A stretch of DNA of 59,671 nucleotides, from contig JAHLKU010000009.1 in the NCBI GenBank assembly GCA_020444505.1, positions 1 through 59,671 of the forward strand, in the 5' to 3' direction. Source of the DNA: Actinomycetota bacterium. Its GTDB lineage: Bacteria; Actinomycetota; Acidimicrobiia; Spongiisociales; UBA11373. Shown in pieces: positions 20,001-22,594 of the stretch (position 1 is the first letter of the stretch; each line of letters opens with the position of its first letter). The position numbers and the translations under genes were made by a program. The notes under the pieces are model-generated. The model saw only the letters and a program-made list of their open reading frames with translations. It ran no database searches and was not told the origin of the DNA.

Positions 20001-20004
<4 letters not shown>

Positions 20005-20771
20005 GCGCCGCCGCCCGCCTCGTCGGCGAAGGCGGGGCACTGGTCGCGGAATGAGCACCAGTCGCACAGCCGCCCGGGACGGGGCGGGAAGTGGTCCTCG
20101 GCGATCGCCCTGTCGATGGCCGACCACAGCGCCCGGAGCTGGCGGTCCATGGCGTCGAGCTGACCGTCGTTGACCGGGATCTCGTACACCGTCGGGCCGT
20201 TGAGGTACACCAGCCGGACGGCATCCGGCGTGCGGCCGACGCGGCGCCGGATGAGCAGGGCGTAGATCTTCAGGGCGAAGAACGCCGGGAGGGCGTAGCG
20301 CTCCGGCGGGGCCTTGCCGGTCTTGTAGTCGGTGATGACCAGCCGCCCGTCCACCTCCTCCATGCGGTCGAGGATGCCCCGGATGGTGATGCCGTCGAGG
20401 TCCTCGAGCATGTCGAGTTCGCGGTCGAGCGGGTCGAAGGACGACGGGTCCTCGACGGTGAAGTAGTTGGCCAGCAACTCCAGGCTCTCGACTCCCCAGG
20501 CGCGCTCCTCCTCGACCGACTCGAACAGGTCGGCGTACTCCTCGGTGCGCAGCTCCGCCCAGGCCTCACGGAACAGGTCGTAGAGGGCCTCGGGGGTCCG
20601 CTCGGGCGCGGGGCGGTCGAACAGCCGCTGCAGGGCGAGGTGGGCCGTGGTGCCCCGTGCCTGGTAGATCGACGGCGGCTCCGGCAGCCGGTCGATGGCG
20701 CGGAACTTGAACAGCTGCGGGCAGGTCTTGAAGTCGCCTGCCCTGCTGGGGGAGAGGGTCTCGAGTGCCAT
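20001..20771 (-). CDS. RecB-family PD-(D/E)XK nuclease with iron-sulfur cysteines
   Basis: 256 residues, a stand-alone nuclease domain resembling the C-terminus of AddB/AdnAB or Cas4. LSPSRAGDFKTCPQLFKF gives the first Cys. GILDRMEEVDGRLVITDYKTG gives the catalytic Asp-(x)n-Asp-x-Lys. CDWCSFRDQCP gives the last three Cys of a 4Fe-4S site. No cas genes are nearby, so a general repair exonuclease is more likely than Cas4. The ATG at 20771 is preceded by TACAGT. The downstream end is convergent with glutamate dehydrogenase. Confidence 0.85.
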
Positions 20772-20840: not shown

Positions 20841-20868
20841 CGCGAAAACCCCTGGTGAGCCGCGAAAA
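20841..20868 (+). promoter_or_regulatory. Paired CGCGAAAA direct repeats upstream of structured RNA A
   Basis: CGCGAAAA occurs at 20841-20848 and 20861-20868, exactly 20 bases apart (two helical turns). The second copy starts 25 bases before the -35 hexamer at 20886. The same repeat pair, with the same 20 and 25 base spacings, precedes structured RNA B. This looks like a binding site for an activator or a specialised upstream element. Confidence 0.65.
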
Positions 20869-20885
20869 CGATCCAGCGCCTCCGC

Positions 20886-20914
20886 TTGACGGTGGCCCCC
20901 CGCCGCCGTACCTT
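20886..20914 (+). promoter_or_regulatory. Sigma70-type promoter of structured RNA A
   Basis: TTGACG (20886-20891), 17-base spacer, TACCTT (20909-20914). The predicted transcript start is near 20921. The -10 box is identical to that of RNA B, and no start codon in a credible ORF follows. Confidence 0.65.
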
Positions 20915-20920
20915 GCCTCC

Positions 20921-21194
20921 ACTTCCTCCTCGGGACCGAAAGGAAACGGGGAGGCGGATTGCTCCTCGGGACCGAGAGGAACCGAGGAGACGGCCTCGGA
21001 GGAGGCTCCCGCAAGGGAGACGCCCGAGAGGGCCTTCGGGCTCACTCGGGCGACCTCCGGGGCCACGGCCCAGACGCCGGGTTTCGGCCCGGCAGACGGG
21101 TTCCCTCCGGGGACGCTTCGCAAGGAGCGGCCGACGGAGGTCGAGGCCCCGAGGTGGCAGCGGTTTCGGCCGAGGCTTCCTCGGGGCTCTCGCG
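20921..21194 (+). ncRNA. Candidate structured non-coding RNA A (unassigned family)
   Basis: The 429-base gap between 20771 and 21201 holds no credible ORF but a chain of strong hairpins capped by GNRA or UUCG loops. 20925-20954 and 20962-20989 are tandem repeats of one design: 7-8 bp outer stem, G-A/A-A internal loop, CC-GNRA-GG tip. They differ by compensatory changes (U-G versus U-A; GAAA versus GAGA). Next are a GCAA hairpin at 21007-21018, an 8-bp stem with C(UUCG)G tip at 21021-21052, a GCCGGGU hairpin with UUCG loop at 21076-21093, and a GCAA hairpin at 21114-21129. GACCTCCG (21052-21059) pairs with CGGAGGTC (21135-21142), closing a multibranch loop. The final 9-bp stem is 21146-21154/21179-21187. 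Ends are approximate. Confidence 0.6.
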
Positions 21195-21200
21195 TGCGGG

Positions 21201-21572
21201 CTACCCGGTCACCCTGAGGACGATGGCGGGGACGGCGCCCAGCCAGATCGCGCCGAACAGGGCGACCATCGGCCACTCCCGCCGCTCCACGTAGTACCCG
21301 GGGGACTGGGTGATCGACGAGAGCAGCAAGCCCAGGCCGAGGCACGAGGCGGCCAGCGACCAGCGCCCATCGGGGGATGCGAGCGTGGCCGCCGCCCCGG
21401 AGAGCAGCGCCGCCGCCGTCAGGATCTCCGCGGCGACGTGGAACCAGATGTCGCGCCGTCCCTCGGCGATCTCCGGCACGCCGCCGGTGGCGATCGCCAC
21501 CACCCAGAACGCCGGCATCGCCACGCCCACCGCGATCGAGAACCCCACTGCGTACCAGAGCCCGGCCGTCAT
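21201..21572 (-). CDS. Small integral membrane protein of unknown function
   Basis: 123 residues. Hydrophobic segments at roughly 5-30, 45-65, 70-90 and 102-120 suggest four membrane helices. No known motif is recognised. The ATG at 21572 is preceded by a strong Shine-Dalgarno stretch (GGGAGGAGGG). The gene lies on the opposite strand between the two structured RNA loci, and its stop meets the 3' end of RNA A. A link between the protein and the RNAs is possible but rests only on position. Confidence 0.7.
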   Translation of the reverse strand: MTAGLWYAVGFSIAVGVAMPAFWVVAIATGGVPEIAEGRRDIWFHVAAEILTAAALLSGAAATLASPDGRWSLAASCLGLGLLLSSITQSPGYYVERREWPMVALFGAIWLGAVPAIVLRVTG

Positions 21573-21639
21573 CGCCCTCCTCCCGTAGGGGTTCCAGCGT
21601 GGACCCCGGGAGCGCCGTCCGGGAGGGCCGTTGGTCACT

Positions 21640-21667
21640 CGCGAAAAGATCCCCTGGGGCGCGAAAA
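21640..21667 (+). promoter_or_regulatory. Paired CGCGAAAA direct repeats upstream of structured RNA B
   Basis: CGCGAAAA at 21640-21647 and 21660-21667, again 20 bases apart. The second copy again starts 25 bases before the -35 hexamer. CCCCTGG lies between the repeats at both loci, so the arrangement is duplicated rather than accidental. Confidence 0.65.
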
Positions 21668-21684
21668 CCAACCACGCTCCCGGG

Positions 21685-21714
21685 TTGACACGGGGCTCGC
21701 GCCGCCCCTACCTT
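21685..21714 (+). promoter_or_regulatory. Sigma70-type promoter of structured RNA B
   Basis: TTGACA (21685-21690), 18-base spacer, TACCTT (21709-21714). Predicted start near 21721. This is the closest match to a consensus -35/-10 pair in the window. Confidence 0.65.
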
Positions 21715-21720
21715 GAGTTC

Positions 21721-21928
21721 ACCGTCGAGGTGGGAGACCACCGAGGCGGAGGCTCCGGCCTCCTCGCAAGGGGAACGGCGGAACCGGGCCCTCGGGCACG
21801 GAGACGTCGGGGCGGGAACCGACCGGAACGGGCTTCGGCCCGGGCCGGGAGCGGAGCAGCCGAAAGGGTGCTTCGCCGAGGAGGCCCCGAGAGGGTTGAG
21901 GCTTCGGCCGAGGCTCACTCGGGGCTTC
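21721..21928 (+). ncRNA. Candidate structured non-coding RNA B, paralogue of RNA A
   Basis: It fills most of the 392-base gap between 21572 and 21965. Hairpins: GGTGG-GAGA-CCACC (21729-21742), GGAGGC-UCCG-GCCUCC (21748-21763), a C(UUCG)G hairpin at 21829-21842 with an outer CCGG/CCGG stem (21823-21826/21845-21848), a GAAA-capped stem at 21856-21871, and a terminal stem 21884-21891/21918-21925 enclosing GGC-UUCG-GCC. The terminal element matches that of RNA A: 21903-21926 and 21165-21188 differ at only 2 of 24 bases, and the C-G before the UUCG loop here is U-G in RNA A. Not recognised as RNase P RNA, tmRNA, SRP RNA or 6S RNA. Confidence 0.6.
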
Positions 21929-21951
21929 CCGCGTCCCGGGGTGCAGGCACG

Positions 21952-21964: not shown

Positions 21965-22594
21965 ATGGCATACCCAGAGCGCTTGCTGTCAGAAGGCGAA
22001 GAGATCATCCGCCAGTTTCGCCCCCACTGGAGGATGTTGGCCTTGCCGGCCGGCTGGACGGTGCTCTTCATCGCCGTCGTGGTGGTCACGTGGGTGTACA
22101 TGCCGGACTCGCCGGACTGGCTGTCCTGGGTGTCCTGGATCGTGACGGCCGCCGCCGGCGTCGCCTGGATCCGCCTGGCGCTCTACCCGTTCGTGGCGTG
22201 GTGGTTCACCTGGTACGTGCTCACCAACGAGCGGCTCATCACCCGCAGCGGCATCTTCGCCCGCAAGGGCCTCGAGATCCCGCTGGAGCGCATCAACGAC
22301 GTCCAGTTCAACCAGAACATCCTGGAGCGCGTCCTCCGCTCCGGCGACCTCCTGGTGGAGTCCGCCGGGGAGATGGGCCAGAGCCGGTTCAGCGACATCC
22401 CCACCCCCGAGCAGTTCCAGAGCCTCCTCTATGCCGTCAGGGAGGAGCGGTCGAAGGCGCTGGCCGGCTTCACCACGGAGACGGCAGGCGGCGGTGCGGT
22501 GGGCGACCTGGAACGGCTCGCCAAGCTGTTCAAGGACGGGCTGATCACCGAGGACGAGTACCAGGCGCAGAAGCGCAAGCTGCTCGACCAGTAG
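21965..22594 (+). CDS. Membrane protein with bacterial PH domain and SHOCT motif
   Basis: 209 residues. Two membrane helices (about 27-47 and 55-80) are followed by a bPH2-type domain: TWYVLTNERLITRSGIFARKGLEIPLERINDV is typical, split here by no gaps. The C-terminus LERLAKLFKDGLITEDEYQAQKRKLL is a SHOCT motif, a short oligomerisation helix pair. Such proteins sit in the cytoplasmic membrane; the function is unknown. The start follows from the TAGGAT box and the N-terminal similarity to bPH2 proteins (a second ATG, after M-L-G). Confidence 0.8.
   Translation: MAYPERLLSEGEEIIRQFRPHWRMLALPAGWTVLFIAVVVVTWVYMPDSPDWLSWVSWIVTAAAGVAWIRLALYPFVAWWFTWYVLTNERLITRSGIFARKGLEIPLERINDVQFNQNILERVLRSGDLLVESAGEMGQSRFSDIPTPEQFQSLLYAVREERSKALAGFTTETAGGGAVGDLERLAKLFKDGLITEDEYQAQKRKLLDQ

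Follow-up and report, generated by a model that had tools for sequence, protein, structure and literature searches.

The window, i.e. the whole stretch of 59,671 nucleotides of DNA that was analysed, contains two gaps between genes in which tetraloop-capped hairpins follow one and the same promoter layout. The question raised by this locus is whether the two gaps encode RNAs of a common family and, if so, what such RNAs might do in the cell. As judged from sequence comparison, the loci appear to encode two members (RNA-A and RNA-B; Table 1) of an undescribed family of structured noncoding RNAs that almost all members of a single bacterial order possess. The proposal of a functional RNA family, made in a first-pass annotation of the window, is supported by a conserved promoter, by covariation, by indels of a non-coding kind and by the lack of any Rfam match. 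New beyond that annotation are the presence of the operator at dnaA and nrdJ, and the RecB-like nuclease gene as neighbour.

Table 1. Positions of the features at the two RNA loci in the window
Feature	Position	Strand	Basis
RecB-like PD-(D/E)XK nuclease gene, conserved neighbour of the RNA locus order-wide	20001-20771	-	PF12705, E=3e-37
RNA-A direct-repeat operator, CGCGAAAA-N12-CGCGAAAA (repeats 20841-20848 and 20861-20868)	20841-20868	+	genome pattern search, order-wide comparison, logo of 84 sites
RNA-A promoter, TTGACG (20886-20891) - 17 nt - TACCTT (20909-20914)	20886-20914	+	coordinates verified
RNA-A (class A), ~270 nt, start and end inferred	20921-21191	+	fold z -6.3, alignment, covariation
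Class-A core, predicted three-way junction with GCAA and UUCG loops	20989-21069	+	model R1, 88 bits; 97% of cells paired
3' module of RNA-A, diverged penultimate hairpin and terminator hairpin	21124-21192	+	model R2, 40.1 bits (RNA-A excluded from training set)
RNA-B direct-repeat operator (repeats 21640-21647 and 21660-21667)	21640-21667	+	genome pattern search, order-wide comparison
RNA-B promoter, TTGACA (21685-21690) - 18 nt - TACCTT (21709-21714)	21685-21714	+	coordinates verified
RNA-B, ~210 nt, start and end inferred	21721-21931	+	fold z -4.5
3' module of RNA-B, CGGAGY..RCUUCG hairpin and terminator hairpin	21848-21931	+	model R2, 80.4 bits (RNA-B included in training set)
bPH2-SHOCT protein gene, frequent downstream neighbour	21965-22594	+	profile match

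Promoter and operator

The duplicated promoter layout described in the first-pass annotation was found at both loci, with two CGCGAAAA repeats separated by 12 bases, TTGAC starting exactly 25 bases downstream of the second repeat start, a spacer of 17 or 18 bases, and a TACCTT box. In the 2.54-Mb source genome the exact repeat pair occurs at two sites, both in this region, for an expectation from base composition alone of 0.00013; the reversed control gave no site, and shuffles of the window yielded a mean of 0.13 repeat pairs even with three mismatches allowed. When 84 distinct sites were profiled base by base, the CGCGAAA(A) boxes proved invariant, at an exact spacing of 20 bp and each followed by a weaker CnAnCnA tail. 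The promoter consensus over these sites is TTG(A/C)C - 17/18 nt - TANNTT, of which the -35 and -10 positions are partly by construction, since the sites had been pre-selected for a TTG-like -35 and a -10. A simple scan of the region for sigma-70 promoters and T-run terminators gave no match, its consensus being so strict that it accommodates neither these -10 boxes nor the CUCUCGCG and CUUCCCGCG tails.

The promoter was also searched for in relatives: 33 of 59 genomes within one order carry the exact repeat pair (reversed control, none), and 54 of the 59 keep it at no more than one mismatch (reversed control, one match). With a stricter exact pattern that includes the -35 TTG, 28 of 71 genomes of the order were positive versus none of 176 others of the class. 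The operator was found in a single order of the Acidimicrobiia, UBA5794/"Ca. Spongiisociales"; UBA5794 is placed by NCBI in Candidatus Spongiisociales, and it is among the 63 stretches, mostly of Acidimicrobiia, of a GTDB-named collection. In one family (f7; L193, L194, L195, L197, L011), unlike in the others, each genome has the repeat pair at several places, borne by a noncoding repeat, CGCGAAAA..CTCCGCACCGGGCCCTCCCCCGCCACCACC, that is dispersed through it. Among the literature matches listed, none dealt with a bacterial CGCGAAAA operator or with small RNAs of this order.

Layout of the locus

Paired promoters and RNAs, a few hundred to ~2000 bases apart, are common across the order. The first promoter adjoins the RecB-like nuclease gene in almost every member, usually in divergent orientation; the nuclease is 60-90% identical over families, and past its gene lie genes for a glutamate dehydrogenase and a UvrD-type helicase-nuclease. 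Between the two RNAs of the window, a 123-aa membrane-like ORF without Pfam match is predicted (21201-21572, minus strand); it has no match in the locus of a congener, where the RNAs stand 340 bp apart. Downstream, a TAGGAT box is positioned 7 nt 5' of the ATG of the bPH2-SHOCT gene, which suggests a leaderless promoter of its own (predicted).

RNA structure and conservation

The folding energies of both loci lie well below those of dinucleotide shuffles (z = -5.8 and -4.5; trimmed RNA-A, -6.3); the ends of the predicted RNAs were placed by means of the -10 box on one side and the terminator hairpin on the other. Across the order, the RNAs measure ~100-650 nt from promoter to terminator, and 63 of 64 have a fold z below -2. 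The GNRA and UUCG loops noted in the inner bodies recur in the whole set: 358 of 516 predicted hairpin loops (69%) in the 64 RNAs are GNRA or UNCG (209 and 149, respectively), as against 15.5 (4%) in shuffles (14.2 and 1.3), where both counts come from minimum-energy folds, which reward such loops, and shuffles were folded identically. On these predicted folds, no other bulk property of the RNA set stands out as much as the loop chemistry. When the bodies were searched for one short word that a protein might bind, tetraloop words alone emerged. A third RNA class is represented by family RNAs of ~95-150 nt (L048, L073, L078, L096, L103, L109, L111, L121), which share a hairpin with a nearly invariant GGGGGCCCGCUUUCCC.

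Class A, to which RNA-A belongs, is alignable across two families; RNA-A has its 5' hairpin duplicated relative to the RNA of the congener. Covariation among relatives is present in the class-A core and in the 3' module. In the core, 97% of the cells pair, none of 500 shuffles equalled the observed covariation score or had as many double changes, and the closing helix shows a compensated change from GGCCUCG/CGRGGCC to GGCUUCG/CGAAGCC. A covariance model of the core (R1) matched 13 of 138 genomes, from two families plus one other genome, and the core was rejected as an order-wide signature; between most families the bodies have thus diverged past recognition.

The 3' module consists of a CGGAGY..RCUUCG hairpin followed directly by a terminator hairpin, CCCCGAGAGGG..CUUCGG..CUCCCUCGGGGUUU. 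The terminal elements of the two loci (21165-21188 and 21903-21926) are identical at 22 of 24 bases, as had been noted, and these 24-mers are just the end of the longer conserved module. Here, pairing stands at 97%, and eight pairs are changed on both sides (shuffle mean 3.8; none of 500 as high). Within the order, the corresponding model (R2) matched 82 of 95 genomes, and 46 of these have at least two copies; elsewhere in the class 5 of 201 genomes had matches, all of them weak. The E-values of both models, R1 and R2, are approximate and include training sequences. Incompleteness of metagenome-assembled genomes accounts for some, not all, of the 13 genomes of the order without R2 match. The description of the two loci as paralogous holds for the promoter and the 3' module, which are common to both; the RNA bodies are without detectable homology.

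The first-pass view that the gaps lack credible ORFs needs a correction, in that long overlapping ORFs are present; such ORFs are usual anywhere in DNA of such high GC. The class-A alignments contain many indels of 1 or 2 nt, and hence these ORFs are not conserved genes; the indels, mostly of 1-2 nt, are unlike those of proteins and speak against coding.

The loci had not been recognised as RNase P RNA, tmRNA, SRP RNA or 6S RNA, and a search of the region with 4227 Rfam models (E<=5) confirmed this, with no match on the plus strand; mir-9242 and RsmW were dismissed as chance matches on the minus strand, far below cut-off. ARAGORN predicted no tmRNA or tRNA in the region, and Rfam 15 gave no match at gathering score in 20 loci of relatives (108 kb). 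The 6S model RF00013 had no match in the region (E<=5) nor in 26 genomes, and was found in five control species. The two loci add a predicted RNA family without entry in Rfam 15 that is kept by nearly all sampled members of a widespread uncultured order, and its retention order-wide, while the bodies diverge past alignment, indicates that its job is probably important.

Other genes with the operator

In the source genome a third site, with one mismatch, is located between rpmH and dnaA and points to dnaA (G000, contig C17, 18595-18622). Six families, with 20 genomes in all, have a site in this interval; rpmH is ~90-270 bp away, the dnaA match follows after 330-430 bp, and near-consensus DnaA boxes adjoin the sites (L125, at 1501-1528, which is that of the source genome; L155, L161, L166, L169, L170, L173-L178, L181, L182, L184-L186, L191, L192, L207). 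The operator is also found upstream of nrdJ, ~290 bp before the start (L062, L108, L113, L115, L117, L118, L187, L189); nrdJ was confirmed as a class-II, B12-dependent ribonucleotide reductase, and has a second promoter, downstream of the operator, with what we take to be NrdR boxes. The spacing to the -35 is identical at the nrdJ and the RNA sites, whereas the dnaA sites have no fixed -35 spacing; the factor may hence repress at dnaA, or act on the origin instead.

Further sites comprise an inverted operator between rplI and dnaB (L171, ~1501-1746; this dnaB has an apparent intein-like domain, PF14890, below cut-off), an operator directly beside htpX in opposite orientation in one family (L008 and L201, near 1501), and one before a PadR regulator gene that is followed by an inositol-phosphate synthase-like gene (PadR-ino1; L022, 917-1528), with the palindrome ATATCG-N3-CGATAT at the -10. 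The htpX, PadR-ino1 and dnaB sites, and those at a small membrane protein, were seen once or in few genomes and are not counted in the core regulon.

Since the operator is common to the RNAs, dnaA and nrdJ, the RNAs appear to be part of a regulon concerned with DNA replication and the supply of dNTPs. The extended reading, an order-specific regulon in which one factor on phased CGCGAAAA boxes would control dnaA, nrdJ and the paired RNAs, with the RNAs feeding back on replication or recombination, is tentative, and we rate its chances as somewhat below even. If true, it would represent a G1/S-like set of genes in bacteria, one that includes RNAs. Cell-cycle regulators are apparently not known from Acidimicrobiia, and the shared operator provides a concrete handle on replication control in this class, linked to two RNAs.

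Proposed function and alternatives

Our best explanation, to which as a whole we give about even chances, is that of paired RNAs driven by an activator, sequestering a protein, and tied to replication. The sequence itself shows, for each RNA, a separate promoter that carries two CGCGAAAA sites in helical phase, a rapidly evolving body made up of tetraloop-capped hairpins, and the conserved 3' module with its terminator-like end. A putative activator, in which we have moderate confidence, would bind both boxes on the same face of the DNA, at about -60 and -80 (class-I position). It would turn on both RNAs together with nrdJ and would also act at dnaA, so that RNA output would track the replication or growth state. 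By way of their hairpins and 3' module, the RNAs might then sequester some protein, not CsrA, and thereby tune replication, recombination or transcription capacity. Sequestration itself is the most tentative step: it is preferred over base pairing given that nearly all of each body is paired, that the number of hairpins varies from family to family and that only the 3' module is shared, and it is favoured by the resemblance in design to GacA-RsmY/Z. As the bodies are unalignable between most families, the case for a common mechanism is built on promoter, 3' module and loop chemistry. A sponge for CsrA (PF02599) was rejected, since CsrA is absent from the source genome (G000) and from 36 of 40 genomes of the order searched, and the target would be another protein; the four genomes with CsrA are G021, G014, G037 and G022 (L251-L254).

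Base pairing in trans with mRNAs, e.g. of replication or recombination genes, would agree with co-regulation through the operator shared with dnaA and nrdJ and with a terminator-like 3' end, but we regard it as unlikely, given bodies almost wholly paired under stable tetraloop caps and alignments that show no order-wide single-stranded seed. A role as lineage-specific replacement of 6S or Ms1 RNA, in which structured, highly abundant RNAs would bind RNA polymerase and adjust transcription to the growth phase, is doubtful, and yet has a better claim than base pairing. It would suit RNAs that are large, under promoter control and present twice in a genome, as well as the failure to detect 6S in these genomes, though detectable 6S is missing from many actinobacteria. 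Ms1 has been reported in 14 actinobacterial orders, with Acidimicrobiia not listed (PMC9130861). The predicted folds, however, show hairpins strung in series and a three-way junction rather than a long hairpin with central bubble, and the neighbour is a RecB-like nuclease, whereas Ms1 has a HAD hydrolase.

Two further readings deny an independent RNA function. If the hairpin arrays and repeats were DNA-level sites for replication or recombination, with transcription incidental, then the operator beside the DnaA boxes at dnaA and the RecB/UvrD-type repair genes nearby would be in place; the strict promoter geometry, the terminator-like end and the RNA-typical GNRA/UUCG loops nevertheless indicate RNA, and in G004, the sole single-contig genome with both sites, the RNA locus is ~725 kb from dnaA, and this reading is very improbable. 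Least probable of all is a cis-acting leader or attenuator of bPH2. The gene does follow RNA-B in several families, but a strong terminator-like hairpin stands in between and most RNA copies have no bPH2 after them; with the apparent promoter of bPH2 itself (TAGGAT-7-ATG), RNA-B is probably not its leader.

Comparison with known systems

Protein sequestration by the paired RNAs, the reading preferred here, has its closest counterpart in RsmY/RsmZ (CsrB/C-type), of which there are at least two per genome, hairpin-rich and poorly conserved, with a dedicated activator site and a terminator. The present RNAs resemble the GacA-controlled RsmY/RsmZ in being multiple and hairpin-rich, with a dedicated upstream site and a terminator end; they differ in the operator, in the absence of CsrA from most genomes, and, from CsrB/RsmZ, in lacking a repeated GGA-loop signature, the enriched words being GCAA, UUCG and GAAA loops. 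With Ms1/6S they share an intergenic position, a length of a few hundred nt, structure with weak sequence conservation, and detection by synteny, but not the long bubble hairpin, the synteny (RecB-like nuclease, not HAD hydrolase) or an Rfam 6S match. Like the large, functionally uncharacterised bacterial RNAs of the OLE, GOLLD, ROOL and HEARO type they are highly structured and were found through comparative genomics; in contrast to these, they are chromosomal pairs with a dedicated operator, vary several-fold in length within one order, and have no Rfam match.

In yeast, SBF acts through its SCB site on G1/S genes, ribonucleotide reductase among them, as E2F does on its targets. No KilA-N-type protein is present in 31 genomes, so that an SBF/KilA-N factor was dismissed as the protein acting at the SCB-like box, and for that reason the likeness is almost certainly convergence. 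As a word, the 8-mer CGCGAAAA does belong to the SCB type (consensus CRCGAAA; PMC1779545), yet here, unlike in the SCB/E2F systems, the sites stand in tandem and in phase at a bacterial promoter.
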